A stretch of DNA of 38,365 bases from a virus, in the IMG/VR virus record IMGVR_UViG_3300044845_000568, positions 1 through 38,365 of that record; one strand, 5' to 3'. A program made the translations under genes and the position numbers. Positions 4,690-26,300 of this stretch are shown here, piece after piece; within the stretch, counting starts at the first letter, position 1, and each line of letters starts with the position of its first letter. Below the pieces are notes generated by a model. It did not search any database, had not been told where the DNA came from, and was given only the letters and a program-made list of their open reading frames with translations.

Positions 4690-4711
4690 TTGATCTGTAA
4701 CAATAAAGTCA

Positions 4712-4720
4712 GGGTAAAAA
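4712..4720 (+). promoter_or_regulatory. GGGTAAAA element, candidate late promoter
   Basis: GGGTAAAAA lies in the 53-bp gap between structural units, and its first G is 31 nt before the ATG at 4743. It belongs to a family of about a dozen such sites at near-constant spacing in this window. A promoter role is inferred from this recurrence. Confidence 0.55.
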
Positions 4721-4742
4721 TCTATCATACAAACAAATTATT

Positions 4743-11673: not shown

Positions 11674-11677
11674 CCCC

Positions 11678-11687
11678 AGGTAAAAAA
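11678..11687 (+). promoter_or_regulatory. AGGTAAAAAA, degenerate GGGTAAAA-type element
   Basis: AGGTAAAAAA lies five bases after the terL1 stop and about 60 nt before the second terL start. It lacks one G of the core and is farther from the start than the other members, so it is a weak example of the window's recurrent motif. Confidence 0.25.
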
Positions 11688-11737
11688 ATCCTAGAGCAAA
11701 CCAAAAATCAACACAAGCCAACAAAATCTTAATTAAA

Positions 11738-13159
11738 ATGACACCAAAACACCCAAAAATAACACACTCTTCTCAGCTATCTGAACATTCAAGCTGGAGA
11801 AAGTATAAAAGAGGTCTTCTTGAACTTGAAATGAGATGCGCTACTAAGGAAATAATCACCGACTACACTAAAGAGTGTGCCAAATATAGTTTTTCTACTT
11901 ATTTGTCTATCACCACAGAAGACATAGACCCCCTACTAAACTGGGAAACTTACGAAATCTTGGGGTCCGCCTTTGAAGACATTGCTGAAGGTAGGTACCC
12001 AATCCTCTTAGTATCAATGCCCCCTCGCACAGGGAAGTCTACATTGGGCTCTCTCTTTCTGTCATGGCTCCTGGGTAAAGACCCTGATACTAACCATTTC
12101 GTAACTTCTTACGGCCAAAGTCTTTCTAGGTTGACAGCAAATAGGGTGAAGCAAGAGGTTAATAATCCACTTTTTGAGGAAATTTTTTCTAAAATTGACT
12201 TTGAACCGCACCGTGTCGTGCCAGTTTCCTCTGGGTTTCCTTTACCCGGGTATGCTTATGGGAACACCAATCCCGATTCTAAAGTGCCTGGGGTCTGGTT
12301 AATCGATGACTATCACAAGTCCTCAAATATAACAGTAAATAAAGACTGGATAGAAAAGGAAATTATGACCCGGCGCCACCAAAACAGTGCCATTGTTGTT
12401 CTTGGGTCAAGATGGGGTGATGAAGACATTTTCGGCTACTTCTTAGATAAATTCGGTGTTTTTGACCCCGTATCAAACCTGAAAGGAGCCGTCCACATTA
12501 ATTTGTCAGCAATTATTGAAAGTAAAGAAGAGGCAGAGGCTGACATTCTGGGTAGGAATGTAGGGGAAACCTTAGGAAATGCCAACCAATACCCGTCCCC
12601 CGAAAATTTAAAAGACCTCAGAAGAAACTTAGGAGATGAAAAGTTCTCATGGCTGTACAAGGGGTGCTCACCGACACCGAAAATCCCCCCATTAGATAGA
12701 GTTATCATTTCTGTTGATCCTGCCTTTAGAGCCGACAGCATTGATAAAACAGGTATTTGCATCGCGGGGGTTTCAAAAGAAAGAGACTACATGTATGTCC
12801 TTGACACTTACGAAGGCAATTGGGACTTGAAAACTGTCGGAGTAATCCTAAGCCTAGCAGTTAAGGCATACGGAGCGGAAGAAATTGTACTTGAATTCGG
12901 CGGGCCAAGTGCAGCTTGGGTTGTGTACCTACAGGACTTAGGGTTAAACGTTTGCGTAGGTAGACAGCCGAGGCAAGCACTCATTAAACGCTTCTCCGAT
13001 ATGGCGGACTCAAGGATAGTAAAATTTTCCAATCCGGATATCCAGAGCACATTCAATGAATGTCGTGACCCCGAGATTGTCCAATCCGATATCATGAGCG
13101 CTGTCCTAGTTAGTTACAGCCAGCTCCTACCTACCGTTAACCAGGGCCTTTGGTACTAA
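11738..13159 (+). CDS. Second terminase large subunit paralogue (TerL2)
   Basis: A 473-residue paralogue of the preceding TerL, starting with the same type of N-terminus (SQLSEHSSWRKYKRG). It keeps Walker A MPPRTGKS (94-101), Walker B VWLIDD (186-191), a motif III-like GSRWGDED (223-230), and nuclease-core acids D327 (SVDPAF), E386 (VLEFGG) and D451 (QSDIMSA). Where copy 1 has HDD, this copy has QSD, so the third site is less canonical but keeps the Asp. It lacks the Gly/Ser-rich tail and has shortened linkers. It may be a second packaging motor, a hetero-oligomer partner, or a regulatory copy. No frameshift or decay is visible. Confidence 0.85.
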   Translation: MTPKHPKITHSSQLSEHSSWRKYKRGLLELEMRCATKEIITDYTKECAKYSFSTYLSITTEDIDPLLNWETYEILGSAFEDIAEGRYPILLVSMPPRTGKSTLGSLFLSWLLGKDPDTNHFVTSYGQSLSRLTANRVKQEVNNPLFEEIFSKIDFEPHRVVPVSSGFPLPGYAYGNTNPDSKVPGVWLIDDYHKSSNITVNKDWIEKEIMTRRHQNSAIVVLGSRWGDEDIFGYFLDKFGVFDPVSNLKGAVHINLSAIIESKEEAEADILGRNVGETLGNANQYPSPENLKDLRRNLGDEKFSWLYKGCSPTPKIPPLDRVIISVDPAFRADSIDKTGICIAGVSKERDYMYVLDTYEGNWDLKTVGVILSLAVKAYGAEEIVLEFGGPSAAWVVYLQDLGLNVCVGRQPRQALIKRFSDMADSRIVKFSNPDIQSTFNECRDPEIVQSDIMSAVLVSYSQLLPTVNQGLWY

Positions 13160-13179
13160 AAGCAAGACCTGACGACAAA

Positions 13180-13192
13180 TTGCGATTCGCAA
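13180..13192. other. 13-bp perfect palindrome (operator-like)
   Basis: TTGCGA-T-TCGCAA lies in the gap between terL2 and the 67-aa ORF. It is the size of a dimeric repressor site, but no protein is assigned to it. Confidence 0.35.
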
Positions 13193-13207
13193 CCGCATAA
13201 AAAGTTG

Positions 13208-13223
13208 CTGTTGTTACCAACAG
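13208..13223 (+). other. Short hairpin before 67-aa ORF
   Basis: CTGTTG-TTAC-CAACAG forms a 6-bp stem with a four-base loop, ending seven bases before the ATG at 13231. It has no T-run, so it is not a terminator. It could affect translation of the small ORF. Confidence 0.3.
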
Positions 13224-13230
13224 TATCAAA

Positions 13231-13434
13231 ATGGCTATTTCACCAACTGATAAAAACTCTGCTATCATGCAGGAGCTTCACGGCACCCGCTGCCTCATTA
13301 CAGACCTTGCCTCGGATAAGTACCTTGATCAAGCGAAAAAAAGACCCCAATACACAATCCCGAAAGACTCCTACTCCCGATGGTGTGGTGGCGCTAATGG
13401 ATTCGACTTATTCGTCGAAAGGGTCCATGAATGA
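13231..13434 (+). CDS. Hypothetical small protein (67 aa)
   Basis: A 67-residue hydrophilic protein beginning MAISPTDKNSAIMQ and containing two Cys (C21, C52) and a C-terminal FDLFVERVHE. It has no recognisable motif. It lies alone between terL2 and a strong terminator, after a palindrome and a hairpin. An overlapping frame that reaches 13480 was judged less likely because it needs a TTG start and has poor composition at its N-terminus. Confidence 0.5.
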   Translation: MAISPTDKNSAIMQELHGTRCLITDLASDKYLDQAKKRPQYTIPKDSYSRWCGGANGFDLFVERVHE

Positions 13435-13486
13435 GTATATAGAGTGGTTGCTCAACCACGATAAATGGTGGTCTCTCTGATGCATT

Positions 13487-13508
13487 AGCCCTCTAACGGG
13501 GGCTTTTT
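13487..13508 (+). terminator. Rho-independent terminator after packaging block
   Basis: The AGCCCTC / GGGGGCT stem (7 bp with one T-G wobble) has a TAAC loop and is followed directly by TTTTT. This is the clearest intrinsic terminator in the window. It separates the packaging genes from PhoH. Its T-run also begins an inverted repeat with the GGTAAAA of the next promoter-like element. Confidence 0.8.
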
Positions 13509-13518
13509 ACCGGGGGCG

Positions 13519-13527
13519 GGGTAAAAT
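13519..13527 (+). promoter_or_regulatory. GGGTAAAAT element upstream of phoH
   Basis: GGGTAAAAT starts 34 nt before the ATG at 13553, immediately downstream of the terminator. This is the arrangement expected of a terminator followed by a new promoter. TAAAAT also resembles a sigma70-type -10 hexamer. Confidence 0.6.
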
Positions 13528-13552
13528 AAGGTCGTAGAGTTCCCTTTCACAA

Positions 13553-14374
13553 ATGACTCTGCCTATTAGTTTAGAAGGGGGTGAGGATCATGTAATCCAA
13601 ATTAGCAACGAAGCATACACGTTATCCACAGTCGTCACTAACCCTCTTTACCAAATGTTGAAATCAAGAGAAAAGCGCAAATCGCGCCGCGCAGAGTCTG
13701 CCCAAATGGTTGAGCACTCTTATAGGGGAATGGATGTTCTACCCTTTTACCCGAAAACAGACCATCAGGAAGACTTGTGGGCATCTTTAAATAAGAACAC
13801 AGTCACCATTGCTATAGGCCCATCAGGAGTTGGAAAAACCTTAGTGGCGCTATGGTGGGGATTGAGTGAAATTTCTAAGGGTAACATTCAAAAAATTTAT
13901 TACATTAGAAGTGACGTAGGCTGTTCTCACCAAAGAAATAGGGGGGCTCTTCCTGGAACCCTGGAAGAAAAAATGAAGCCACTGGTGGGACCTGTCTATG
14001 ACAATTTGGTGGTAATGACTAGAAGCAAGGGGGCTGCGGATTACCTTGTAGATAAAAAGATTGTAGAACCCACACTCCTAGAGGATTTGAGGGGGAGATC
14101 ACTAAATGAGTGCCTAATTCTTTTTGATGAGGCCCAAAACTCATTACCAGAAAATGTTAAAACCGTCCTCAGTAGGGTTGGCAAAGACTCGAAAGTTGTC
14201 ATTACAGGTGACACAAGGCAAATTGACCTAGATGTATTTAAACCTGAAAATGGACTTTTAGATTGCTATCACCGGCTTTCCTCCATTAGAGGGGTGGGGA
14301 GAGTTAAATTTGAAAGGGGGGACATCGTCAGGAACGGCATCATAGCAGAAATCTTGGAGGCATACGAAGCTTAA
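13553..14374 (+). CDS. phoH: PhoH-family ATPase
   Basis: A P-loop ATPase of the PhoH type, common in cyanophages; its biochemical role in infection is unsettled. Motifs: Walker A GPSGVGKT (89-96), the PhoH signature GALPGTLEEKMKP (131-143) with the following PVYD, Walker B LILFDEAQN (188-196), and ITGDTRQID (217-225). The 273 residues match phage single-domain PhoH, without the PIN domain seen in some bacterial homologues. The N-terminal 80 residues are extra and charged. It is alone in its unit, with a terminator before it and an apparent promoter after it. Confidence 0.93.
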   Translation: MTLPISLEGGEDHVIQISNEAYTLSTVVTNPLYQMLKSREKRKSRRAESAQMVEHSYRGMDVLPFYPKTDHQEDLWASLNKNTVTIAIGPSGVGKTLVALWWGLSEISKGNIQKIYYIRSDVGCSHQRNRGALPGTLEEKMKPLVGPVYDNLVVMTRSKGAADYLVDKKIVEPTLLEDLRGRSLNECLILFDEAQNSLPENVKTVLSRVGKDSKVVITGDTRQIDLDVFKPENGLLDCYHRLSSIRGVGRVKFERGDIVRNGIIAEILEAYEA

Positions 14375-14475: not shown

Positions 14476-15357
14476 ATGATCGAAATAGATAACCCTAAAG
14501 AATTTGATTTTGCAATTGCTGGAACTATTCAGCACCTAGGCGCACCCCAGAGATGGGGGGGGTCCGGGAAGAAAAGATGTTCTTTAGGGAAATCTTGTCG
14601 CTCAACTTGCATTCAACGGGGTTTAGTTTGTAGGGTTGAATTAAGTCCATACATTGCGGAGTCCCTGGGGAGACTAATTAAAGTAAGAAGAAGTGGCGAA
14701 GTAAAAGCTCACCCTGACTTAAAGATAGACTTCAACAGGAATTCCATCATGGGTGCCATCCGGGATTTAAAAACCCTGGACCCAGACGCCCCTCGCAGAG
14801 TAGAAGTTCTCCAGAGGATTTTCAATAAGACTAAAACCCTATTCATGGACTGGAAGGACATTGCAGGCAACAAAGAAGCCTTCAGAAGCGCATTTTCAGG
14901 GTACTTCAAAAACCCAGATTTCACCATCTCGCAGAAAATCTACAATAAGACTTGGGGCGGGTTAGCGTATAAAGAGGGGGTCACAGTTATCCGGTCAGCT
15001 CAGGGGTTTACCCCACAAGTAAAGAAAATCAAGGCCACTGCCGAAAAGCATTTATCCAGTGCCGCCCAAGGTAAAGAACTGCCACATACTATGGGTAAAG
15101 CTCCAGGGTCAGCCAGCAATAATACACTGGTGACATTAGTTCACGAACTAGGGCACCACGCTCACTTCAAAGCGAAAGAAGTTGGAATTCCCGATAGCTT
15201 CAAAAGAGTTAGCACATACAGTAAAACAAATCAACTAGAGCACTATGCTGAGCTATTTTCAAGTTACATATTCGCTGGACCCAAAATGAAAAAACTTTTT
15301 CCAGCGGAATATGAACTGGTGGAGTCTGTTCTAAGGGAAGGGAACTTACTGAGGTAA
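14476..15357 (+). CDS. Cys-tagged zinc metalloprotease, candidate phage effector
   Basis: A 293-residue protein with two parts. Near the N-terminus is a Cys module C35-x5-C41-x3-C45-x6-C52 around LGKSCRSTCI, which recurs in the two kinase-like proteins at 17058 and 22150. The C-terminal part carries LVHELGHHAHF, a zincin HExxH site (H223, E224, H227), followed at 255-262 by EHYAELFS, whose glutamates could supply the third zinc ligand as in gluzincins. Toxin-like proteases of this kind cleave host proteins, but the target is unknown. Without a signal peptide it would act in the cell it enters or is made in. A small helical gene follows three bases after the stop. Confidence 0.75.
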   Translation: MIEIDNPKEFDFAIAGTIQHLGAPQRWGGSGKKRCSLGKSCRSTCIQRGLVCRVELSPYIAESLGRLIKVRRSGEVKAHPDLKIDFNRNSIMGAIRDLKTLDPDAPRRVEVLQRIFNKTKTLFMDWKDIAGNKEAFRSAFSGYFKNPDFTISQKIYNKTWGGLAYKEGVTVIRSAQGFTPQVKKIKATAEKHLSSAAQGKELPHTMGKAPGSASNNTLVTLVHELGHHAHFKAKEVGIPDSFKRVSTYSKTNQLEHYAELFSSYIFAGPKMKKLFPAEYELVESVLREGNLLR

Positions 15358-15360
15358 ACT

Positions 15361-15543
15361 ATGGATAGCATCGAAAAAGCCCAGGTCTTAATTCGTAAGG
15401 CACCTTCCGATAAAGAAAACTTCGATAAATATGCAAAAGCCTTGTCTGCCTTGTCGGATTTAGAAAGAAAAGGAGGAGACATGGTGTCATCTGAGTTTAT
15501 CAAAAATGAACTAATGGAAGCCCTACTGGTAGCTACCCAATGA
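15361..15543 (+). CDS. Small helical partner gene 1 (60 aa)
   Basis: A 60-residue, highly charged, helical protein three bases after the metalloprotease stop. It resembles the 59-residue product directly after the first kinase gene (18278-18457): both have a helix with L-x-x-L, then a Gly-containing turn, V-S-x-E-x-I and a last helix. Size and pairing fit a chaperone, adaptor or immunity-type partner of the Cys-tagged proteins. That role is inferred. Its stop overlaps the next start (ATGA). Confidence 0.55.
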   Translation: MDSIEKAQVLIRKAPSDKENFDKYAKALSALSDLERKGGDMVSSEFIKNELMEALLVATQ

Positions 15544-15875
15544 GAAGAGACACAAGATTTAATAGGCCCTCCCGTGAAGACCTAGAAGGTAAATTACCAG
15601 TGGGTACGCTAACCGGTAGCCAAGAAATGGGGATCTGGAACATGATGTTACAATCTGATGACCCCTCAGAAGTTTGTAAATGGTATAGAAGCTACAGGGA
15701 CAGCCCACACTGTGAAGTGCCTAAGGAAAAACTTAGGGCCATGCGGGACACCATGGTAAACGGTATGAGGGAAGCCAACAAGAAAGACCCTGCCAGAAGA
15801 TTAGAAAAAAGAAAGGGCATCCACTACATGGACTACGAAAATGAATGGATTTTAAAACCCAGGGAAGAAGCTTGA
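15540..15875 (+). CDS. Hypothetical basic protein (111 aa)
   Basis: A 111-residue soluble, charged protein containing two Cys and a C-terminal YENEW-ILKPREEA. There is a possible structured segment LTGSQEMGIWNMMLQSDDPSE. It overlaps the upstream small helical gene by four bases, and the next gene starts one base after its stop, so it is part of the metalloprotease unit. No family is recognised. Confidence 0.55.
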   Translation: MRRDTRFNRPSREDLEGKLPVGTLTGSQEMGIWNMMLQSDDPSEVCKWYRSYRDSPHCEVPKEKLRAMRDTMVNGMREANKKDPARRLEKRKGIHYMDYENEWILKPREEA

Positions 15876-15876
15876 C

Positions 15877-16236
15877 ATGGGCAAAACTGAGGCTAAAATT
15901 AGAGACTTATACAGGATTCCTTGCGGCCCCATGGAAATTTCTGCCGATTCAGTGTGTAGAAGGGGGTTGAAAGACTCTATGGATAAACTCCTAGATAGGT
16001 TAACCCATGAGGTTCACCCCGTGGTTATTGATGATGCTGACGGTGCCGACGGAAATCATGATGCTGACGGAAATCACGCTGAAAAGGAAGAAACTGACGA
16101 TGAGAGAAAGGAACGTCTCATTAAAGAGGGTAAATTGAAGGCCGAAGTCAAGGCCACCATAAGGCAATATGAAGAGGAACTTCAAGGTAATAGCAAACTA
16201 TTGCAAGATATTTCTGGTAAAATTGAAAAGTGGTGA
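15877..16236 (+). CDS. Hypothetical charged coiled-coil protein with Asp-Gly-Asn-His repeat (119 aa)
   Basis: A 119-residue protein with a short N-terminal domain containing two Cys and a central direct repeat of the form DADG-(A)DGNH / DADGNH (about residues 53-67), which also shows in the DNA near 16033-16078. A charged helix from about 70 to the C-terminus is likely a coiled coil. It is the last gene of the metalloprotease unit. No function can be assigned. Confidence 0.5.
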   Translation: MGKTEAKIRDLYRIPCGPMEISADSVCRRGLKDSMDKLLDRLTHEVHPVVIDDADGADGNHDADGNHAEKEETDDERKERLIKEGKLKAEVKATIRQYEEELQGNSKLLQDISGKIEKW

Positions 16237-16407
16237 CCCCAACCGCCAGCATGATGGGTAATAATCATTGGTCTTAGTAGGTCTCAGGGCACACTTTCAA
16301 CATCTGCTGAAATAGGCCTAAAAACTGAAAGCTGAATGGACCAGGGCCCAACACCCCAAACACCCCCCCCCAACACTTAAACATTCAAGTACCGACCCCT
16401 TAAACAA
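16237..16407. other. 171-bp intergenic region with C9 tract
   Basis: No ORF longer than about 14 codons and no terminator. It holds GGGTAATAATC at 16256, but 150 nt from the next start, a C9 tract at 16363-16371, and the GACCCCTTA motif just before the acidic-protein gene. Confidence 0.4.
16394..16407 (+). promoter_or_regulatory. GACCCCTTA element upstream of acidic-protein gene
   Basis: GACCCCTTAAACAA directly precedes the ATG at 16408. Almost the same sequence (GACCCCTTATA) directly precedes the ATG at 32461. These two gene heads lack the usual GGGTAAAA element, so this may be an alternative start signal. Weak evidence, with two cases only. Confidence 0.3.
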
Positions 16408-17022
16408 ATGACGAATAGAATCAACGGCGATTTTGAACAGGATGCTATTGAAGCTTTCCGCGCAGCTTATGCAGCTCAATTGTCAAACCCTGAAGATCAC
16501 GAAATTGACCCCATTAACGGGTTGCCAACGAACGTAGTCCATAATACATCCCCCTGGATTCAGCATACGGGGCTCTGGAAGGCCAACGATGGTTTGTCCC
16601 GTGACTTTAAGCCCAACCAACCTTTCAACCCAGATGATTATTTCCCGGCCTCCCCGGGCGATGGTGCCGAAGAAGGTGATGACGATGCTGACGATGCCGA
16701 GACCAGTCAAGATGCTGATGATGACTCAACATACCTAACCGATGAAGAATTTGAACGCCTTTCTGAAGAAATTTGGGGTTCGGATGGTAGCGATTCTGAC
16801 GGTAATACAGAAAGTGACTCTGACGACAACGACAACGGTAACGACAACGAAACCCAATACGAAGAAGACCCCTATGTGGAGTCCGAAGTCGAAGGTGGAG
16901 AAGAACTAAATGAGGATGAAATTGATACCCTAATCGACGAGATCCTTAGCGAAGGTAACGATGAACACGATGAGGACGGAAACGAGGATAATGAAGACGG
17001 AGAATACAACGACGAAAATTAA
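16408..17022 (+). CDS. Highly acidic low-complexity protein (204 aa)
   Basis: The first 80 residues look folded and include an Ala-rich helix (AIEAFRAAYAAQL). From about residue 83 to the end, nearly half of all residues are Asp or Glu, with Asn, Gly and Ser and almost no Lys or Arg. Such proteins in phages act as DNA mimics, scaffolds or internal head proteins; none of these can be proved here. It is a single-gene unit between the protease and the first kinase. It has no membrane segment. Confidence 0.6.
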   Translation: MTNRINGDFEQDAIEAFRAAYAAQLSNPEDHEIDPINGLPTNVVHNTSPWIQHTGLWKANDGLSRDFKPNQPFNPDDYFPASPGDGAEEGDDDADDAETSQDADDDSTYLTDEEFERLSEEIWGSDGSDSDGNTESDSDDNDNGNDNETQYEEDPYVESEVEGGEELNEDEIDTLIDEILSEGNDEHDEDGNEDNEDGEYNDEN

Positions 17023-17025
17023 ATT

Positions 17026-17032
17026 GGGTAAA
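17026..17032 (+). promoter_or_regulatory. GGGTAAA element upstream of kinase 1
   Basis: GGGTAAA starts 32 nt before the ATG at 17058, in a 35-bp gap, at the spacing shared by most sites of this family in the window. Confidence 0.55.
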
Positions 17033-17057
17033 TTAAAGTATCAGTACCTTTAATTCA

Positions 17058-18278
17058 ATGGTAGTCCTAGGAAGAACAGAAGCTCAAATTAATGCTGCAA
17101 AAAAGGGACAAATAGCCAGGCTTGGCGGCTCTGATTTACCTAAATTAAAAAGAAAAAAGTGCAAGAAAGGGAAATCTTGCGGGGCTTCTTGTATCCCGGG
17201 TTACCATGTTTGCATGGTTGATATCCCCTGGGCTTTAAACCCCGGATTAAATAAAGCTGTTGCAGCTATTAAGAAAGTACAGGGTGTGGCCCAGGTTAAG
17301 GTCCCGGTAGCGAAGGCTCCGGCGGCCAAGACCCCGGCAGCGAAAACTCCGGCAGCGAAAACTCCGGTAGCGAAAACTCCGGTAGCAAAACCCCCCATAG
17401 TTGGAGCCCAAGAGGTAAAAACCGAAGCAAAAACCCCCATAGTTAACCTCCCCGTAAAAGCCAAAGAAGTCTACGACATAATTGATTCCCCTGGCTTCAA
17501 ACTTAGGGACGTTGATGGCAGTAAGGCAGCTAAATCCATTGATTGGAACGCCGTAGGTAACCCCAATGCAGTCCAAATGGGTGCTGGCATGTTTGGGGCG
17601 TTCTTCAAAGTTCCGAACGGTGCGTTAGGTAGGAATGTAGGTATTAAGGCTGGGGAAATAGGTCTCCATGAAGCAGAAGCCCTCAAGATTGTCGGCAAAG
17701 CAGGCATAGGGCCTAAATTTATTGCGGCCCAGCACGGGGAATTCGGGGGTGGGAGATATAGGGTGGCCACAGGCAGAATCGCGATGGGGGTAGTGCAAGG
17801 AACTCCACTTTATAAGTCGCCCGGTGTTGTCAACGGCATAACAACAAGGGACGCTTACTGGACAGCTAGGGCTAAAATTCACAGGTTGGGTGTAGCCCAT
17901 AATGATACTCACGCCGGTAATATCATGATTGACAATAAGGGTGTGGCAAGATTCGTTGACTTAGGGCTAGCCCAGGTTTCCCGTAAAGCAGCTCTTGCAG
18001 AGGCTTTAGGTGGTGCTAGTAGGACGGGGGCAGACTTTGAAGCTGAGAAACAGTTGTATTCCCGGGGAAAAGGAAAAATATTCAATTTAATTAGTTCAAA
18101 TATCAGAACAGTAGTAGAAGCCATGAAAGCTGATGGTTTGTCAGATTCTGACGTTAGAAGATTCCGAAGTACTGACATTAGACAAAAAGATGAGTATTTC
18201 AATACCAACCCATCCTGGTCAAAAATCACTGACAAGCAAGCTAAGAAGTATATAGACCTCTTATATGACGGAGTCTGA
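17058..18278 (+). CDS. Cys-tagged protein-kinase-fold protein 1, candidate effector
   Basis: A 406-residue protein. Residues 35-52 hold C-x5-C-x3-C-x6-C (CKKGKSC..SC..VC), at the same residue positions as in the metalloprotease. A Pro-Ala-Lys linker of repeated AAKTP units follows (about 82-113). The C-terminal part is a small kinase-like domain: GAGMFGAFFKV glycine loop (175-185), K197, catalytic HNDTHAGNIMID (281-292, D283 and N288), and metal-binding FVDLGLAQ (299-306, D301). All key residues are present. The H-N-D-x-H loop is closer to RIO/ABC1/aminoglycoside-type kinases than to eukaryotic Ser/Thr kinases, so the substrate is open. It ends TGATG with the next small gene. Confidence 0.75.
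   Translation: MVVLGRTEAQINAAKKGQIARLGGSDLPKLKRKKCKKGKSCGASCIPGYHVCMVDIPWALNPGLNKAVAAIKKVQGVAQVKVPVAKAPAAKTPAAKTPAAKTPVAKTPVAKPPIVGAQEVKTEAKTPIVNLPVKAKEVYDIIDSPGFKLRDVDGSKAAKSIDWNAVGNPNAVQMGAGMFGAFFKVPNGALGRNVGIKAGEIGLHEAEALKIVGKAGIGPKFIAAQHGEFGGGRYRVATGRIAMGVVQGTPLYKSPGVVNGITTRDAYWTARAKIHRLGVAHNDTHAGNIMIDNKGVARFVDLGLAQVSRKAALAEALGGASRTGADFEAEKQLYSRGKGKIFNLISSNIRTVVEAMKADGLSDSDVRRFRSTDIRQKDEYFNTNPSWSKITDKQAKKYIDLLYDGV
17304..17393 (+). repeat. Six-copy 15-bp tandem repeat (Pro-Ala-Lys linker)
   Basis: Six 15-bp units of the form CCGGYAGCGAAAACT encode Pro-Ala-Ala/Val-Lys-Thr repeats linking the Cys module to the kinase domain. Units 3, 4 and 5 are nearly identical, which suggests recent unit gain by slippage. 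Confidence 0.75.
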
Positions 18279-18457
18279 TGGCAAGCAAAATGTCTGAGTC
18301 CGATAAAAAATACCAAAAATTAATGGGGGCCTACAAAGTTGCCCGAAGAAACCCTACCGACTTGGGGAAAGCCCAAACCCTCCTAAAGGCAGCCCAAGAA
18401 TTAAAGAATTCAGGTAAAGTATCACCCGAAGTAATTGAGGGGGTGCGTTACCTTTGA
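18278..18457 (+). CDS. Small helical partner gene 2 (59 aa)
   Basis: ATG 18278 overlaps the kinase stop (TGATG). The 59-residue product begins MASKMSESDKKYQKL and is charged and helical, with VSPEVIEGV near the C-terminus. It resembles the 60-residue product that follows the Cys-tagged metalloprotease (15361-15543). Two Cys-tagged effector genes are therefore each followed by a similar small gene. A chaperone, adaptor or immunity function is an inference. Confidence 0.6.
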   Translation: MASKMSESDKKYQKLMGAYKVARRNPTDLGKAQTLLKAAQELKNSGKVSPEVIEGVRYL

Positions 18458-18476
18458 GAGTTGGTAAGTTGGCAAA

Positions 18477-18484
18477 GGGTAAAT
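18477..18484 (+). promoter_or_regulatory. GGGTAAAT element upstream of two-TM protein gene
   Basis: GGGTAAAT begins 31 nt before the ATG at 18508, in the 50-bp gap after small partner gene 2. This is the standard spacing of the motif family in this window. Confidence 0.55.
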
Positions 18485-18507
18485 CTAAGTAGATTCGCTG
18501 AAGGGCA

Positions 18508-18828
18508 ATGAAAGAATTCAACGAAAGAGCATTTTTAGTTAAAGCTTTAGTGGCTATTTTTGTAGCACAAATCGCTATGATCGGTTATGATAATGTTTCA
18601 TGTCGTAATAACCTGAGAAAATCACCAAATGACTCTTATTCAGCTTTCTGCCTAAAGATAACCGATAATTTCACCGAGACCGGGAAATCAGCAGCCAATG
18701 TCTTCTTAGCGTTGCTAGTACCCGCTGCTGCTTTGGGAATGGCTACCAAGGGAAGTTCCGGTAAATCAAACAATAAGGACAATAGTATAGATAGCAACCC
18801 AGATACAAACACCGAAGGCAAAGGGTAA
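18508..18828 (+). CDS. Two-TM membrane protein, holin-like candidate (106 aa)
   Basis: A 106-residue protein with two hydrophobic segments (about residues 9-27 and 63-82), a polar loop with two Cys between them, and a hydrophilic Ser/Asn/Asp-rich C-terminal tail. Size and topology fit a class II-type holin that would permeabilise the inner membrane at lysis, but no lysin gene is nearby to support it. It could be any small phage membrane protein. Its stop lies inside the next GGGTAAAA element. Confidence 0.45.
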   Translation: MKEFNERAFLVKALVAIFVAQIAMIGYDNVSCRNNLRKSPNDSYSAFCLKITDNFTETGKSAANVFLALLVPAAALGMATKGSSGKSNNKDNSIDSNPDTNTEGKG

Positions 18829-18831
18829 AAG
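18823..18831 (+). promoter_or_regulatory. GGGTAAAAG element at 18.8 kb
   Basis: GGGTAAAAG starts 31 nt before the ATG at 18854. It overlaps the last codons and stop of the two-TM gene (GGG-TAA). The motif is therefore kept despite coding constraint. Confidence 0.55.
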
Positions 18832-18853
18832 AAATAAGTTTCTAACTACTCTT

Positions 18854-19570
18854 ATGCCTTACGGAGAACACATGGATTTCTCCTCTGTACTCTTGCCGGG
18901 TGTCGGGGGACAGTTAAATGCCAGTAATGCCATTTCTACTGATCAGTTGATGAAAAGGAATAAAATCGGCCGTAAATGGTCCCCCACCCCGGAAGGAGGC
19001 TTGTCGATGCACAAGGAGGCTATTCTAAAGGGCAATAAGGCCATCAGAGAACGGAGGGCCAACCTAGTCAATAGGGACTATGATGGCCACGCTGACGGAG
19101 CTGATGCCATGAAGGAAATCATGGGTCGCCGCAAAGCTAGAATGGATTCTTTCAAAGAACTTAAAAGAAAAGAATATAATTTTGCAGACGATACTGAACT
19201 GATGTCAATCCCCCAACCGTTCAAAGAAGGCGGATGCAAGTCTTGCCAATCGGGTAATTGTAAATGTAGCTCATGTAACGCGAAATCAGGCAATTCAGCA
19301 AAATTCAGGGAATGGGATGCTGAGGCCAGGGAAAAACTAAAGGCAGGAAAAACAAAAGGGGAATTCGCAGGCCCCGGAAAGTCTTTCCCAATTGCCAGCC
19401 CCCAAGATGTTGCTGCTGCATGGTCATCCGTAGGTCGCACTGCAGATCCACGTAAAGTTATGGCTGCTATCATCCGCATCGCAATCAAAAACAAATGGGA
19501 ATCTGGTTTACCGGAAACTGTCAGGCAAAGGCTTGAAAATGGTGGTAGTGGTTTACCGGATGGCAATTGA
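18854..19570 (+). CDS. Phage protein with Cys cluster and DUF6582-like C-terminus (238 aa)
   Basis: The N-terminal 110 residues are charged. A compact Cys cluster CKSCQSGNCKCSSC (128-141) looks like a metal-binding or disulfide-rich knuckle. Residues about 165-230 resemble the DUF6582 domain often seen in phage structural proteins (G-K-S-F-P-I then a helix A-A-A-W-S-S-V-G-R-T and I-I-R-I-A-I-K-N-K-W). The role of that domain is not known to me. Its stop overlaps the next start (TGATG). Confidence 0.55.
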   Translation: MPYGEHMDFSSVLLPGVGGQLNASNAISTDQLMKRNKIGRKWSPTPEGGLSMHKEAILKGNKAIRERRANLVNRDYDGHADGADAMKEIMGRRKARMDSFKELKRKEYNFADDTELMSIPQPFKEGGCKSCQSGNCKCSSCNAKSGNSAKFREWDAEAREKLKAGKTKGEFAGPGKSFPIASPQDVAAAWSSVGRTADPRKVMAAIIRIAIKNKWESGLPETVRQRLENGGSGLPDGN

Positions 19571-20067
19571 TGGAATACGACTGGAACCGCCTACAAGGTC
19601 TTGGCTTTGATTTGCAGTTTGTAGAGAGGGCCCTACCCGCTAGGTATAAAAAAGGATTGACCCCCAAGGAACAAACCATCGCCAAGGAAGAAGCTAAAGA
19701 AACGATGCAAAAGGCTAAAGACCCTGGAGTATCCTCCAAAGACCTATACAAAGATTGGGAATCTGACGATAAGTTCAGAAAAAGAAACAAAAAAATCCCT
19801 GAATCCCCCGCAACTAAAGCTTTCGACGACAGATATTCTGAGGGGTCTAGCAAGGCACTAAAAGCAAAATCGGAAAAGTCAGGTATTTCTGCTAGTATTC
19901 TGGGAGAAGTATACAGTAGGGGGATCGCAGCATGGCGTTCCGGCCACCGACCCGGAGTATCCCCGCAGCAATGGGCATTAGCCAGAGTGAATTCATTTAT
20001 TACAGGAGTTGGTAAGGCTCGCCAGGCTGATAACGACCTTTGGAAAAAGCACTCTAAAACCAAATAA
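19570..20067 (+). CDS. DUF5824-like phage protein (165 aa)
   Basis: The start is taken at the ATG at 19570, which overlaps the previous stop (TGATG), rather than the upstream TTG. Residues 22-45 (LPARYKKGLTPKEQ) fit the DUF5824 motif common in large phages. The C-terminal half (SASILGEVYSRGIAAWRSG, then QQWALARVNSFITG) is another element that I know only as phage-conserved. The first 20 residues (EYDWNRLQGLGFDLQFVERA) are nearly repeated at the start of the protein at 20876. Function unknown; possibly a virion protein. Confidence 0.6.
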   Translation: MEYDWNRLQGLGFDLQFVERALPARYKKGLTPKEQTIAKEEAKETMQKAKDPGVSSKDLYKDWESDDKFRKRNKKIPESPATKAFDDRYSEGSSKALKAKSEKSGISASILGEVYSRGIAAWRSGHRPGVSPQQWALARVNSFITGVGKARQADNDLWKKHSKTK

Positions 20068-20080
20068 TTTACCAAATTCT

Positions 20081-20800
20081 ATGACCACTCTAACCAATAT
20101 CAAACAAGGAGCCCCTGCTCCGCAACCTGCTCCGCAACCTGCTCCTCAAGCCCCAGTCAATTTCACTTTTACCGGCGATTCTGTGTTGGTCCTTGGGTTT
20201 GCCCTTTGGGCCCTTGTTACTAAGGTGATTGCCCCTAGGACTATAAATAAACTGGATGTCTTTCTAAATCACATCGAGAAAGAAAAGGAAATCAACACTT
20301 GTTTGGCCCAAATTGGCATCATAACTAATGCTTCTAGGGTTATTTTGTGTTCCTTCCATAATGGACAAGTTGATTTTACGGGGTACCACCTCCAAAAAAT
20401 GTCCACCACCAATACCTACACAGCTAAAGATAGCGCTGCTATGGCATCCCCGGTAAAGGATATTCAAATAGGCAGTTTCATAAGGGAAATTGAAGCCATG
20501 CTTGAGGAAAATGATTGGTTGACTGTGAAATTTAGTGAGGAGTTGCCCCAAGCTTGTAAGGACTATCTGTCTAGGAATGGGATTGACTGTTTCTACAATA
20601 GGATGGTTAAGGTGGGTAATTTGCCAATTGGAATCTTGTCAGTTCAGTACGGTACTGAAGAAAGGAATAAATTTGACCTAACAATAAAGAGCAATAAGGA
20701 TACCTTAGAAAACCTGTACCTGGAAATTTCCGAAATCATGAGGACACGATTCATTCAGCCATCACCGCTCCGGAAATTATTTAAATGGTGGCCTCGCTAG
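20081..20800 (+). CDS. Membrane-anchored GAF-like domain protein (239 aa)
   Basis: The start is placed at ATG 20081, where the preceding stop region ends; an upstream GTG in the same frame would read through the previous gene. Residues 12-25 form a Pro-Ala-Gln repeat, 33-51 a single hydrophobic segment likely to span the membrane, and about 70-195 a GAF-like fold (A-S-R-V-I-L-C-S-F-H-N-G-Q followed by K-M-S and a C-terminal G-I-L-S-V-Q-Y strand). GAF-type domains bind small ligands. The C-terminus is basic (RKLFKWWPR). A membrane sensor or timing protein is a guess. Confidence 0.5.
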   Translation: MTTLTNIKQGAPAPQPAPQPAPQAPVNFTFTGDSVLVLGFALWALVTKVIAPRTINKLDVFLNHIEKEKEINTCLAQIGIITNASRVILCSFHNGQVDFTGYHLQKMSTTNTYTAKDSAAMASPVKDIQIGSFIREIEAMLEENDWLTVKFSEELPQACKDYLSRNGIDCFYNRMVKVGNLPIGILSVQYGTEERNKFDLTIKSNKDTLENLYLEISEIMRTRFIQPSPLRKLFKWWPR

Positions 20801-20802
20801 GT

Positions 20803-20874
20803 ATGGCGGTATTTAATTCCCAAGTATTACGACCCCATCCCCCACAGGGTAACATTAATTACTTCCTGAGATAA
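20803..20874 (+). CDS. Possible 23-residue microprotein ORF
   Basis: ATG 20803 opens a 23-codon frame whose TAA ends one base before the next ATG (20876). The frame contains the GGGTAAC promoter-like element. It could be a translated leader or chance. Confidence 0.2.
   Translation: MAVFNSQVLRPHPPQGNINYFLR
20847..20852 (+). promoter_or_regulatory. GGGTAA element at 20.8 kb
   Basis: GGGTAACATTAATT begins 29 nt before the ATG at 20876, in the 75-bp gap after the GAF-like gene. The core GGGTAA is kept; the following A-run is broken by a C. Confidence 0.45.
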
Positions 20875-20875
20875 A

Positions 20876-21292
20876 ATGACTATTTCTGAGTACGATTGGA
20901 AACGTCTCCAAGGTTTGGGCTTTGACTTGAATTTTGTGGAGAATGCTGCCAAGGGCGCTAAAGGTTCCAGGGCGACTAGATCTGGTGAAGCTTCAAGGGG
21001 TCAAAACCCCGACCTTACCTCAATGGATAAGATGGCCATTGCCCCAGGTATGAAAAAAGAACCCGCTACAAAACCATCGACTTTTATCATGGGGGAAGGG
21101 GACGCTGATTTCGAACCTAATGGCGGTATGCTAATTGCCCAGTTAAAATCAATGCAGGATAATATCGCCACTTCCTTAGGAGAGATCACCCCCAATAGTA
21201 ACTCAGACCCCTGGATTGCATCAAAAATTTCAGAAGCTTCCCACAGTTTAACAGCAATTGCAGACTATTTGAAACATGGAGAGAAAGAGTAA
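20876..21292 (+). CDS. Hypothetical protein sharing N-terminal peptide with 19570 product (138 aa)
   Basis: The N-terminal segment SEYDWKRLQGLGFDLNFVEN closely matches the N-terminus of the DUF5824-like protein, while the rest is unrelated. The middle is Ala/Gly/Lys-rich and probably flexible. The C-terminal 60 residues are helical and amphipathic (QLKSMQDNIATSLGEIT, then SHSLTAIADYLKHGEKE). The shared peptide may be a docking or capsid-targeting tag. Its stop overlaps the next start (TAATG). Confidence 0.55.
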   Translation: MTISEYDWKRLQGLGFDLNFVENAAKGAKGSRATRSGEASRGQNPDLTSMDKMAIAPGMKKEPATKPSTFIMGEGDADFEPNGGMLIAQLKSMQDNIATSLGEITPNSNSDPWIASKISEASHSLTAIADYLKHGEKE

Positions 21293-21681
21293 TGCTTTAC
21301 GGTAGTGCAAATTTCAGCGATGAAGCCCTAGAGGCATTCTATAACATGTTTGCTGAGCAGTTTGGGGAGACTTACGATAAGTCTAAAATGGCTTGTAATA
21401 AACCACGCCCTACTAAACCCGGTGATGAGAAAAGCCATGTGGTCAAATGGTGCCATGACGGTAAGGAAGAATTGAAAAAATTTGGCCAGAAGGGTGCAGA
21501 AACTGCTGGACCACCTAAAGAAGGTGAATCTGAACGCATGAGGGTGAAGCGTAAAAAGTTTAAGTCTAGGCACTCCAAGAACATCGCTAAAGGACCATCT
21601 TCATCAGCCTGGTGGTCGAATCGATTTAAATGGAATGAAGCCATGGACATTATGGCCAGAAAAAACATCGACTTCAATTAG
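21292..21681 (+). CDS. Small basic phage-conserved protein (129 aa)
   Basis: A 129-residue basic protein. It has MACNKPRPT (33-41), KSHVVKWCHDGKEE (47-60) and a C-terminal KRKKFKSRHSKNIAKG followed by SSAWWSNRFKW. I know this K-x-F-K-x-R-H plus aromatic-W pattern from small proteins of large phages, without a function. It overlaps the upstream gene by one base, and its TAG overlaps the next GGGTAAAA element. Confidence 0.6.
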   Translation: MLYGSANFSDEALEAFYNMFAEQFGETYDKSKMACNKPRPTKPGDEKSHVVKWCHDGKEELKKFGQKGAETAGPPKEGESERMRVKRKKFKSRHSKNIAKGPSSSAWWSNRFKWNEAMDIMARKNIDFN

Positions 21682-21689
21682 GGTAAAAG
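21681..21689 (+). promoter_or_regulatory. GGGTAAAAG element at 21.7 kb
   Basis: GGGTAAAAG begins exactly 30 nt before the ATG at 21711 and overlaps the preceding TAG by one base. A tiny ATG-GAC-TCT-TAA at 21698-21709 lies between it and the start. Confidence 0.55.
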
Positions 21690-21710
21690 AAAACATAATG
21701 GACTCTTAAA

Positions 21711-22145
21711 ATGAGAAAAGATAAAATCTCAAAAGAAGCATACGATAAGGCGATCCAAGCTTATTCCCATAAGCCTACAGATTATGCCAAAGGTACTGTA
21801 ATGGAGCCTACAGTAGTCCTGGGCCTTCGACCTAGTTACAGTGAGTATGGAGACCTTGGGAAAAAGCATACGGATTTAACCAGCCAAATAGAGTCCCTAA
21901 ATGAGAAAATGAAAATCTCCCGTCAGAGGGGGGCGTTTCAATCCTTGCAAGAACAAATGAAGCAAGTTAAGGAACTAGTCAAGAAGCGCGAAGACATCGA
22001 TGCCAAGATGGCTACCCTGGACCTAGCCAGAAAGAATACCGATGACCACCGAATCGCCACAGGTGAAGAATTGTCATATTCCGAAAAGATAGACACAGTA
22101 TCAAACCGAATCGCTAGACTAGAGACTTTACTAAACGGGGGCTGA
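21711..22145 (+). CDS. Coiled-coil protein upstream of kinase 2 (144 aa)
   Basis: A 144-residue protein with a short basic N-terminus and a long charged helix (about 55-110) showing heptad-like spacing (K-K-H-T-D-L-T-S-Q-I-E-S-L-N-E-K-M). It is almost certainly a coiled coil. It lies four bases before the GTG start of kinase 2, so it may be the kinase 2 counterpart of the small helical partners found with the other two Cys-tagged genes. No sequence similarity to those is visible. Confidence 0.5.
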   Translation: MRKDKISKEAYDKAIQAYSHKPTDYAKGTVMEPTVVLGLRPSYSEYGDLGKKHTDLTSQIESLNEKMKISRQRGAFQSLQEQMKQVKELVKKREDIDAKMATLDLARKNTDDHRIATGEELSYSEKIDTVSNRIARLETLLNGG

Positions 22146-22149
22146 GTCC

Positions 22150-23346
22150 GTGTTTGGTAAAGGAGATAGGTGTGATATAGGGAAATCGTGCGGTTCAACA
22201 TGTATAGCCCGACTAAAGGTTTGTAGGGTTGATTTTGGGGATAACATATCAGAATCTATTGACCGTATATCCGGGTCTATTGATGCTAGTTTCATCGATG
22301 ATGCTAAGGAAAGTTTAGAAGACTACTTGGCTAGGGTGGAACCAAACGCTAAAACAAGCACAAAATCTGTACCCAAAGTAAATCAAGAGTCAATCAAGAA
22401 GCCAGGAAAAATAATTACTGGTAACACACAATGGGCCAGAGATGATGCTTCTGATTTTGACTCTAGTTTCAAGGTAGGTAGGGTCATTAATGGCACTAAG
22501 GATCAATTTGACTGGTCCGGGTCCCTAGGTAAAGGAACCAAATTAGGGGAAGGTGGATTTGGTACTGTGCTCTTGATAAAGGGAAACCCGAGCTATGCCG
22601 TTAAACGTGGCCAAGTGAGTACAACGGAAGCGGAAATAACTCAAATCTTGGGGAAAGCCGGTTTAGGCCCCAAACTGGTGTATGGGGAAATAGCCAAAGG
22701 CAAACCAAAGGCAGAGGGTGGTGTCTATATAATAAATGGTCGTATAGTCATGGGACTGGTGCCCGGTGAGAGTTATGGTAGCTTTAGTAAGTCTTCAGAC
22801 AAAGTAGGAAAGACATCCATTGGAGATGCTTACTGGTTCTTGAGATCACAGGTCCATAGACTCGGGATAGCCCACAATGATGCCCATAGTGATAATGTAT
22901 TGATCGATAAAAATGGTAGGTCCAGGTTTGTTGATATGGGCTTATCGCAGCAAAGCGTCAAAGCAGCGTTATCTGAAGCACTGGGGGTTTTTACCAACAA
23001 GGGGTTTTTACCAAAAGGTTCGACTTTCGACCTTAGAAAAACTGATCCCTTGACCTCTGGGGACCATAGATCAAAAACAGACCCCCAAATGGGAGTACAT
23101 AAAGGGTCAATCAAGGGGGATGCTCCCCAGAATTTACTAAAAATGAGGGACAATCTACCCAGGGTTTACGATGCGCTCAGGAGTCACGGCGTCTCTGACA
23201 ACGAAATTGCCCAGATGATTGTGTCCCGGGTTGGGGAGCCCCTGAAGTCATACGAGAAAGGCCCATGGGCCAAGCTATCAAACAAGGACGCTGCCAAAGT
23301 TATCGACATTTTGTATGACGGAGTCAAAGACTATTCTAAGGATTAA
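22150..23346 (+). CDS. Cys-tagged protein-kinase-fold protein 2, candidate effector
   Basis: The 398-residue product begins at a GTG (no in-frame ATG is better placed) and opens with the Cys module C8-x5-C14-x3-C18-x6-C25, with GKSCGSTCI. A flexible linker (about 60-95) is followed by a kinase-like domain: LGEGGFGTV glycine loop (132-140), K152, HNDAHSDNVLID (242-253; D244, N249) and VDMGLSQ (261-267; D262). The end (KVIDILYDGV) matches kinase 1 (KYIDLLYDGV), showing common origin. It lacks the AAKTP repeat linker and has an insert after the D262 region. All key catalytic residues appear intact. Confidence 0.75.
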   Translation: MFGKGDRCDIGKSCGSTCIARLKVCRVDFGDNISESIDRISGSIDASFIDDAKESLEDYLARVEPNAKTSTKSVPKVNQESIKKPGKIITGNTQWARDDASDFDSSFKVGRVINGTKDQFDWSGSLGKGTKLGEGGFGTVLLIKGNPSYAVKRGQVSTTEAEITQILGKAGLGPKLVYGEIAKGKPKAEGGVYIINGRIVMGLVPGESYGSFSKSSDKVGKTSIGDAYWFLRSQVHRLGIAHNDAHSDNVLIDKNGRSRFVDMGLSQQSVKAALSEALGVFTNKGFLPKGSTFDLRKTDPLTSGDHRSKTDPQMGVHKGSIKGDAPQNLLKMRDNLPRVYDALRSHGVSDNEIAQMIVSRVGEPLKSYEKGPWAKLSNKDAAKVIDILYDGVKDYSKD

Positions 23347-23395: not shown

Positions 23396-26300
23396 ATGAC
23401 CAGAGAACAATCAGCAAACAAAATTATTTTCGCAAAATCCAGTCTCCTGGGTAAGCGTCCTACCAACCAACTGCAACCCGGCGAAATCGGTTTGAACACC
23501 AATAGCCAAGAACCGGGATTATTCTTTGGAACAACAGATGGAAGAGTAATTAAAGTTGGTCCTACGGCAGTTCTACCAGATGCCCCTACAAGCACCCCAG
23601 AGAGGGGTGAATCCTGGTTGAATACCGTTGACGGTACTTTGAATGTAGGCGATGCTGTAAGGTCATGGAGGTCTATCGCAGCGCCTTTTCTTGGGGGTAA
23701 TGGTAATGTAGTATTTGTAGCCCCGGAATTTCAGTTCTCCTCGGATGCCATTGCCAATGATGGACAAGCATTGCCCTACCAGACATTAACAAGGGCTATC
23801 CTGGAGCTATCGAAAATTTATATCAGCAACGTACTGGCTGGTTTATCCCAGAAGAGTGAATCTAATAGGTACACAATCTTTTTGGCGTCGTCAAGATTCA
23901 CTGCCAATAATGGCCCTGGGCAAAGCCTATCGGATTTTTCTCTTAACCTGTCGAATTATGGAACGGGAGATATTTCCACATCTGATTTAAGCAAATTTAA
24001 CACTGAGAGCGGGTCCATTATAGTGCCATCAGGCATCTCTATTGTCGGCTTGGATTTGAGAAAGTGCGTAGTTTGCCCTTCATATGTACCATCATACCGT
24101 AATCATACTTTCCCCACTGCATTGGCAGGAGTTAATCAACCTGCAACTTCTATTTTTAAACTATCAGGCAACTCGTCCCTTTCCAACTTCTCAATTAATG
24201 ATAAAGTAAACTACATCGAAGTGGTCGAAGTTACCAACCAGAATTCCTATGCGTTATTTAGATCTAAGAGGCCGCATGGGTTAGAATTGAATGATTTAGT
24301 TGACACCCAGTACTCGTCTGGCATAGACCAAAGCACCGGATCCTTTTCTGCTGGTGAGTACTATGCCATCCCTATAACAACATATACTTTTCAGTTATCC
24401 ACAGAAAAGCAATTGCCATTTGGTGGGGCACCCAGTGTTGCATTTACATCAATTCCACTTAATGTTAATTCCAGGGCAGTAATTTTTAACTGTTCTTTCA
24501 CCCTGAAGTCGGCCCACAGACTAAGGGTAGTTGAAGAAGCATCTAAAAATGATTTAGCTGAGTATTATACTAAGGTTCAAAGGGCTTTCCCTGTATTCTT
24601 CGGTGGTAAAGTCACTGACGGTGATTCACTGGTCAATTCAGGTGATTTTGTCATCGTGGGCCCCACAGATACGGCTTTCCCGAACAATATCAATTCAAAT
24701 ACTACAAAAAATTCATCCTCCTATGTCAATCAAGTAAATTTAAAGTCCGATTACGGAATGTGCTTTATTGATTTTAACGGATCTAACATCCTTGGGTTTA
24801 AGTCCGTCATTGCTAATTCTTGCACATCTGTCAGTTTACAAAATGACCCAACGGCATACGAGGTTTATACAACTCTAGAGTCTGAACAGAAGTGGTGGTC
24901 GTTAACTGAGTATACATATCTATCCAAGCCCCTATCGCAAAGGCCCGCATCTATAGTAGATGTTACCATTGAAGACCAGCTCCAGGAATTAAACTCAGTA
25001 CCCATCAATAACATACGCTATTACTACCAGAACCTGAAAACAGCTGATAATCTTAGCCTGGGAATAGTAGACATAGACACAGACTTTAGACATTTTGGGT
25101 TCAGAGTAAGAAACGGGGCCTATGCTCAACTGCAATCTGTGTATACTATTGGCCCAGCAGTTGGGGTATGGTCACTAAATGGTGGGATCACAAGTCTAAC
25201 AAATAGCACAACTAACTTCGGGTCCGTAGCTTTTAAAGCTGAGGGCTTCCTTGGTATTAATACAATAAGTGGGGCACAAAATAACGCTCAAGGATTTGTC
25301 TTCGAGGGCATCCAGAGGCCCCTAGCTCTAACTATCGGTCAAGTTGAGAAGTCAGAAAACAAAAAGATTCTTTCCCTGGGATCCAGAGTAGTAAGCTCTT
25401 ACATTGATCCAACTAATACCGAAATTCAGCTAGTTGAGTTGAGTGCGGATTTTGATCCACGGTATTTACTTCCTTATTCTTTGAAGCCGGGTAGTGCAAT
25501 TTGGGTGGAGACGGAAGAATGCACATACCGTGGTTTCCTGGCCACAGACGGTGGTCCCACAGTTAATACCGGTCAGGACGACCCAGCTAGATTTGCCCAG
25601 TTAAGAATTAGGTCATCAGATAGTACCATACCGACTGATCTTAATTTGATCCCCGTTTTAGGAGTACCCTATATTAGACGATTCCATGACCCACGTAGTG
25701 ACATTGAGAAGTCCTACAGTATGGTGCTAAGTAATACATCATCTAATGCCATCTCCCCTCAAATAGGTGATGTTCTACGTCTCAACCAAAGCAGTCAGAT
25801 TCTTGGATCATCGAGTTTAAGGCCAAATGTCCAATTTGACCCAGGGGTACTGGGGGGATGGGGCCGCATATTTACTGTTGATGCGGTAGAGACTGGAATT
25901 TTAGGGTCTTCGCCTCAGTTTAATTATTTGATTGGGGACGGTAATCAAGACATAGAATATTATGTTACAATAACAGCATCCGATTATGATAGGCCCTGGG
26001 TGCAGAATTATGACCCTGATAGTGGTAGTTATCTCACCTTTGATAACCCATCGGGAACCTACACCACATATGCCAATAGAAACTGGTATGCTGCGGAAAA
26101 TAATTATTGGACTTCAGTTTATTATGGGGAAGCTAGTAACTTCCAGCCCACATCTGGCCCAGAGAAGCTATCCCCAACATCAACCAATTCTCCATTCGTC
26201 GATACTAGTACCTTAGAAAGACAGGACTTGGTCAGTCAGACTTTCCAGGGATCCTATGCCGCTGATGAATACTCATCAATTTATCCAAATTCTACTTACT

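Follow-up and report, generated by a model that had tools for sequence, protein, structure and literature searches.

Injected effectors and virion kinases of cyanophages have been described before, as have MuF toxins and polyvalent proteins. Virion kinases have been cited for the cyanophages S-CRM01, S-TIM5 and S-CBWM1, and one account (PMC10665884) reports that APH, ChoK and Rio2 kinases were detected in virions of Synechococcus phage S-CBWM1, the nearest isolate that we found for the virus studied here. The stretch of DNA that we analyzed (38,365 bases, hereafter the window) constitutes the entire IMG/VR virus record IMGVR_UViG_3300044845_000568 and encodes a zincin and two kinases that share an N-terminal module of four cysteines with the spacing C-x5-C-x3-C-x6-C, hereafter also the tag. 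This shared module, its joining to kinases, zincins and HNH, zeta and ART-like domains, and a Cys-free enzyme part as a common property are apparently new as far as our literature searches show; these searches, which covered cyanophage virion kinases, MuF proteins, polymorphic toxins, capsid targeting and Cys-free ejection proteins and left most subscription papers aside, returned no description of the tag. On balance we lean towards the explanation that the module is the N-terminal cargo tag of a polymorphic family of virion-carried, injected effectors in S-CBWM1-type cyanophages and their relatives.

The three tagged proteins are encoded on the plus strand. The zincin (293 residues; 14476..15357), whose open reading frame (ORF) lies directly downstream of PhoH, holds the module at residues 35-52 (C35/41/45/52; 14578..14631) and an HELGHH zinc-binding motif at residues 223-228 (15142..15159). 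Kinase A (406 residues; 17058..18278) carries its module at the same residues (C35/41/45/52; 17160..17213), preceded by a leader, GRTEAQINAAKKGQIARLGG (17070..17129), that is common to tagged proteins of unrelated C-terminus, and its catalytic core (17577..17966) includes a glycine loop, the Lys, HND at 281-283 and DLG within VDLG at 300-303. Kinase B (398 residues, with a GTG start; 22150..23346) has the module at residues 8-25 (C8/14/18/25; 22171..22224) and a core (22543..22941) with a glycine loop, Lys152, HND at 242-244 and DMG at 262-264. The module sequences of the three proteins are CSLGKSCRSTCIQRGLVC, CKKGKSCGASCIPGYHVC and CDIGKSCGSTCIARLKVC, and their four cysteines are the sole cysteines of each protein. 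A DNA pattern for the module occurs at three places in the record, all in these genes, and its reversed form nowhere; a module profile, built partly from the window copies, recovered only the same three window matches at E values up to 10. Chance was rejected as a source of the pattern, the spacing having appeared 0 times in 2000 shuffles of the 35 window proteins against three real carriers. Pattern, profile and shuffles thus agree with a preliminary description of this DNA that had placed the exact tag in these three proteins, and all of the catalytic residues that it had called intact (HELGHH and the kinase G-loop, Lys, HND and DLG or DMG) were located; the lack of any further cysteine had gone unmentioned there.

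Pfam recognized one catalytic domain per kinase, with Pkinase matches below the curated cut-off in both kinase A (E 2e-4), which has kinase homologues in cyanophages, and kinase B (E 5e-6), and gave no match for the zincin. The predicted model of kinase B (predicted local distance difference test, pLDDT, 79.6) returned kinase-type rows in Foldseek at E 5e-7 with low template modeling (TM) scores. In the zincin, the H, E and H of HExxH and a further residue, E259, are invariant in 6/6 aligned sequences. Its model, with a pLDDT of just 58.6, compares with the M34 fold (as in lethal factor and PPEP) at Z 9.2 with a root mean square deviation of 5.5 over 184, or at Z 9.1 with 3.7 over 153, an M34-like match that is tentative given the low pLDDT.

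The tag extends well beyond the window. In a first scan of viral contigs, 52 of 75 candidate stretches were confirmed and defined 50 loci; a wider profile confirmed 84 of 110, and the best 80 of these defined 77 loci. The module profile matched 41/41 records searched, a proportion that is not a frequency since the records were chosen because they bore a locus (S-CBWM1 being a known match); it had no match in the records of S-N03, S-B68, S-CRM01, S-CREM2, MED4-184 and S-TIM5. S-CBWM1 has five copies (in gp023, gp035, gp036, gp084 and gp091), a 47-kilobase record (G016) has 8, and another (G036) has 12, some of them weak. After removal of identical ORFs, we counted 97 distinct tagged ORFs with a single module each, the C-terminal parts of which formed 15 clusters, three very short ORFs being left over. 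The kinase-type cluster holds 46 ORFs, some of them truncated or reduced to the tag and placed there by their linkers. Other clusters comprise 21 HNH-type ORFs, ORFs bearing an HExxH site in groups of 6, 1 and 1, 6 ORFs of an unknown 230-residue type and 6 short ones; also found behind the tag are a zeta toxin (Pfam E 8e-22), a PGDYG protein and a DnaJ protein (E 8e-15), and the remaining classes are an ART-like protein, the L016 protein and two unnamed ones. The name ART-like, given to L030:3911-5239 by eye, is an assumption based on characteristic motifs and on the similarity of this protein, as of L016, to a family of minor head proteins; searches of PDB sequences with this protein and with L016 returned no match. 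For the unnamed L030:2666-3883 and L013 we had guessed a HipA-like and a glycosylase-like identity, respectively, and our searches supported neither.

In 96/97 tagged ORFs the module has its complete set of four cysteines; the one degenerate module has lost both C1 and C3 and retained C2 and C4. Among the 46 aligned kinase-type ORFs, ungapped positions keep the Lys in 42/42, HxD in 41/41 and the Asp of DxG in 40/41, with 34 Asn and 7 Gln at the position after HxD, and the HNH His is conserved in 19/19 ungapped positions among 21 aligned sequences. Sharing of the tag by other phages and intact catalytic sites in homologues, on which the proposal of an effector family had been staked, are therefore both borne out. 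The tag may have been overlooked because of deposited gene starts: S-CBWM1 gp084 begins directly after the last tag cysteine (L001:20399-20465) and gp036 inside the tag, most of which is cut off (L002:18830-18887). In both, open ATG-started frames span the whole tag. Note also some variants of the architecture. Two ORFs (L038:3908-4342 and L018:6473-6745) consist of tag and linker and have no kinase match, and a kinase B homologue is split over two frames (L007, about 3995-5189). The divergent virus G036 (L135-L137; 153,952 bases) carries modules on a zincin with a below-threshold LPD1 match, on a DnaJ protein and on weakly hydrolase-like proteins, together with a 1563-residue open frame that contains four modules.

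The tag has moved between enzymes. The 101 N-terminal residues of kinase A are 75% identical to those of the ART-like L030:3911-5239 of another virus (E 2e-46; 277 bases at 78%), and beyond the tag the two proteins share a short linker match at E 0.001 and otherwise nothing (best E 1.2). Since this closely similar pair of leaders and tags has unmatched C-terminal parts, leader and tag are swapped between unrelated effector domains; paralogy was considered in place of exchange and is ruled out by the same pair and by the unrelated C-terminal clusters. Inspection by eye showed a leader of the form RTxxQIxxAK before the module in the kinase, ART-like and HExxH classes and in one unnamed class. 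The idea of a common tag joined to different catalytic domains, first drawn from three proteins, is consequently widened to 97 ORFs and supplemented with a direct exchange pair.

Evidence that tagged proteins reside in the particle comes first from S-CBWM1. By deposited names, its APH, ChoK and Rio2 kinases correspond to gp035, gp036 and gp084, all three of which are tagged; they lack a leader and start no more than five residues from the first Cys. The fourth kinase, the PknB-like gp024, is untagged and is not among the virion kinases named in the passage cited (PMC10665884). The tagged HNH-type gp023 is deposited under the name 'virion structural protein'. In the mass spectrometry table for S-CREM2 virions, the kinase ORF14 is represented by 21 unique peptides and ORF12, called a CRISPR-Cas9 nuclease, by 28. 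The former matches 41/97 tagged ORFs (best E 4e-20) and the latter 6/97, of HNH type (best E 7e-7). Both are without the tag and their N-termini differ from those of their tagged relatives, so that related enzymes bear different N-terminal parts in different phages. These S-CREM2 N-termini appear reminiscent of the T4 capsid targeting sequence; no T4-type targeting propeptide was seen by eye in the three window N-termini. The kinases of S-CREM2 (L111), S-N03 (L108) and S-B68 (L109) share a GLxxDGHGxW/Y motif or its GFGxW variant, and the neighboring HNH-type proteins of S-CREM2 and S-N03 also carry a motif of the GHGxW/Y type, which is perhaps a second cargo module.

Links to head proteins complement this pattern. 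A MED4-184 protein deposited as 'head morphogenesis', which by our own reading is of MuF type, ends in a stretch that matches the C-terminal part of the window zincin (E 6e-9). A 'minor head protein' family was matched by the ART-like domain (E 9e-11) and by that of L016 (1e-20). We hold it very probable that the tagged enzymes are present in the particle. The preliminary description had proposed virion loading for the three window products; this gains support from the tagged virion kinases of S-CBWM1 and from Cys-free composition, and stands to the extent that relatives and composition speak for the window proteins.

Cysteine depletion provides a further line of evidence. Thinning by similarity kept 66/97 tagged ORFs, from which one secreted-type protein (L105) was removed, and the 65 remaining proteins hold 11 Cys outside the module in 23,743 residues, against an expectation of 298 derived from the 1.26% Cys of 327 untagged ORFs in these loci that are 150 residues or longer, the window excluded. 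Alternative expectations were about 215 (from 33 S-CBWM1 genes, 0.91%) and about 281 (from 17 other window ORFs, 1.18%). Cysteine thus stands at 0.04 of background, a 25-fold depletion, and the remaining amino acids range from 0.71 to 1.48. Proteins free of Cys outside the tag make up 49/58 of tagged proteins of 180-650 residues, compared with 26/214 of background ORFs of 200-650 residues. Outside the tag, the three tagged kinases of S-CBWM1 are free of Cys and its two tagged HNH-type proteins contain 2 and 1; its untagged PknB-like kinase contains 7 among 292 residues. The untagged S-CREM2-type kinase, HNH and neighboring proteins (n=7) are likewise poor in Cys, with 3 in 5175 residues against 31 in 2486 for 16 nearby genes. 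T7 gp14, gp15 and gp16, which are injected, together contain 1 Cys in 2261 residues, and N4 virion RNA polymerase contains 0 in the 3008 residues read. The absence of Cys from N4-type polymerases was noted earlier and proposed to aid passage through the tail or periplasm (PMC3715699, PMC3915230, PMC2784036). Depletion as a sign of injection is a natural but unproven reading, and injection of the tagged enzymes into the host appears likely to us.

No named family for the module appeared in lists of Pfam and NCBIfam families, two of which covered 25 of 40 and 25 of 66 families, no PDB chain matched it at E values up to 10, and two scans of GTDB with narrow peptide patterns, which yielded 30 and 90 candidate stretches, revealed no relative, a result that does not establish absence. 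The same Cys spacing follows signal-peptide-like N-termini in small proteins (L138:6610-6912, L139, L140 and L141) from an Enterobacter mori plasmid, a Sphingorhabdus plasmid, Pseudoalteromonas phage C5a, where the look-alike is annotated as SH3, and a 42-kilobase virus record. Because the spacing recurs in such secreted-type proteins and because the degenerate module lost C1 together with C3, there is a weak indication that a disulfide clasp is likelier than a metal clasp.

These patterns suggest a possible mechanism. The tag, often with its short leader, would let different enzymes load into the phage particle, and these would enter the cyanobacterium together with the phage genome and become active immediately. 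Host proteins would be modified by kinases and ART-like domains, the zincin would cleave a host or phage protein, and HNH domains would cut nucleic acid. The four tag cysteines probably form a small clasp held by disulfides or metal, and the enzyme part would be kept Cys-free, like established injected proteins. That the Cys module itself is the loading tag seems to us somewhat probable. A fuller version, which we offer tentatively, is that capsid loading depends on thiol or metal chemistry of this portable tag, which would take the role that the capsid targeting sequence has in T4 and would mark out a polymorphic arsenal of injected cyanophage effectors; that the enzymes, purged of Cys everywhere except in the tag, thereby become able to cross tail and envelope; and that the clasp forms in the particle and opens on arrival in the reducing cytosol.

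Several observations weigh against this explanation. The virion evidence comes from relatives, its S-CBWM1 part through a secondary source, and none of it from the window virus. The module has no confident structure (AlphaFold pLDDT <50), and some tagged ORFs (L038, L073, L074 and L018) have no enzyme part. Injected T4 Alt holds 3 Cys in 682 residues, the divergent G036 set is weakly depleted (0.26% versus 0.44% Cys), and Cys is likewise missing from the T7 scaffold and from the major head protein of both N4 and S-CBWM1, so that composition points to the particle interior and not to injection alone. Moreover, NMNAT was also reported in S-CBWM1 virions, and our module search found no tag in it; therefore, the tag is not the sole way in, or carry-over occurs. 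This untagged protein, the other N-termini of S-CREM2-type kinase and HNH cargo, and the Lys and Arg residues that flank many tags favor an alternative in which the proteins are virion cargo and the module is a small knuckle that anchors them to the packaged DNA or serves to regulate the enzyme, loading being due to the leader or to another feature. We consider this unlikely: the module is the sole part common to all classes, and the three kinases reported from S-CBWM1 virions have no leader ahead of a first Cys that lies almost at the start.

Carry-over raises another alternative, in which the tagged proteins are abundant late intracellular enzymes that contaminate virion samples and the module is a dimerization or regulatory element. 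The authors of the S-CREM2 study indeed warn of carry-over and of incomplete separation from virions in cesium chloride. A 25-fold depletion of Cys would be unexpected in cytosolic enzymes, however, MuF and minor head proteins carry related enzyme domains, and virion kinases are cited for three cyanophages; we regard this alternative as improbable. Finally, the idea that the module is an envelope-acting disulfide domain, as in small secreted bacterial proteins, that serves to cross or meet the periplasm and not to load, draws on the spacing shared with the Enterobacter plasmid protein, the Sphingorhabdus frame, phage C5a and L138 and on the joint loss of C1 and C3 with C2 and C4 kept, but these similarities are short and weak (E 0.9, 2 and 2) and signal peptides are absent before phage tags in the N-termini examined, which makes it very improbable.

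The cargo-tag explanation accords with the gene neighborhood. Across 89% of its length, the window large terminase shows 53.5% identity with its S-CBWM1 counterpart. The two genomes also agree in gene order: a head-tail adaptor is followed by the terminase and PhoH, then by small and tagged genes in a block, and finally by gp081 or its homologue. The packaging block (large terminase, a second terminase-like gene and PhoH; 9943..14374, plus strand) lies directly upstream of the zincin, in agreement with the earlier remark that the tagged genes sit near packaging genes. A 1607-residue homologue of gp081, deposited as a putative baseplate wedge, forms the downstream border (23396..28219, plus strand). 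Directly after PhoH comes a tagged HNH-type gene in S-CBWM1 and the tagged zincin in the window. In the 25/41 records with a terminase match, 57/71 tags lie within 15 kilobases downstream of the terminase on the same strand versus 14.6 expected under uniform placement, a descriptive figure given that the records are related and of unequal length; 15 hand-picked, less redundant records gave 34/44 versus 7.8. The two terminase-large-subunit-like genes of the window stand in tandem (9943-11673 and 11738-13159; phrog_38 E 1e-80 and 5e-24), and two terminase matches were seen in 12/41 related records, three in G026 and one in S-CBWM1. Within the block, ORFs 19567-20067 and 20876-21292 share an N-terminal EYDWxRLQGLGFDLxFVE and then diverge. 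These two, as well as ORFs 16408 and 21711, contain no cysteine, and the first two may be further cargo. Predictions between 13,000 and 24,000 gave 18 promoters versus 17.0 in shuffles and 20 terminators versus 13.4 (standard deviation 4.1), and neither is used for any claim.

If the favored explanation holds, a shared tag and a Cys-free enzyme would constitute a sequence rule for particle-borne phage proteins, the kinases repeatedly reported from cyanophage virions would fall into one system, and the delivery tag could be tested in an existing isolate, S-CBWM1. The tagged enzyme families would be a possible means to reprogram photosynthetic bacteria before phage gene expression. Among described systems, the cyanophage virion kinases (the APH-, ChoK- and Rio2-like kinases of S-CBWM1, S-CREM2 ORF14 and that of S-CRM01) have homologous kinase domains, and those of S-CBWM1 the same tag, whereas the accounts consulted name single kinases and neither a shared tag nor other enzyme types. 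The N4 virion RNA polymerase is likewise injected and Cys-free (PMC3715699, PMC3915230, PMC2784036), but it is a different enzyme and has no tag. The T4 capsid targeting sequence and T4 Alt (PMC9026906) offer a short N-terminal signal that loads different cargo and an injected enzyme; the tag described here is, in contrast, Cys-based. Polyvalent proteins (PMC5512222) present the same repertoire of zincins, ARTs, kinases and zeta-like kinases and are expected to be packaged; the tagged chains differ in having mostly one recognized enzyme domain instead of two or more, and the word 'cysteine' is absent from the main text of that source as far as it was available. MuF polymorphic toxins of temperate phages (PMC5576092) also combine a constant N-terminus with a variable C-terminal nuclease, metallopeptidase or ART and a link to the phage head. 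The tagged proteins have instead a tag of about 20 residues and no head domain, with several tagged genes per genome, and the three window proteins gave no match to the MuF domain at E values up to 1 (HMMER filters may drop weak ones). A defining trait of polymorphic toxins, a constant N-terminus with exchangeable C-terminal domains, is found in the tagged family (15 clusters and one exchange pair); we infer that the module would act as a trafficking part of the polymorphic-toxin kind, and the label 'polymorphic toxin' fits these proteins as an analogy.

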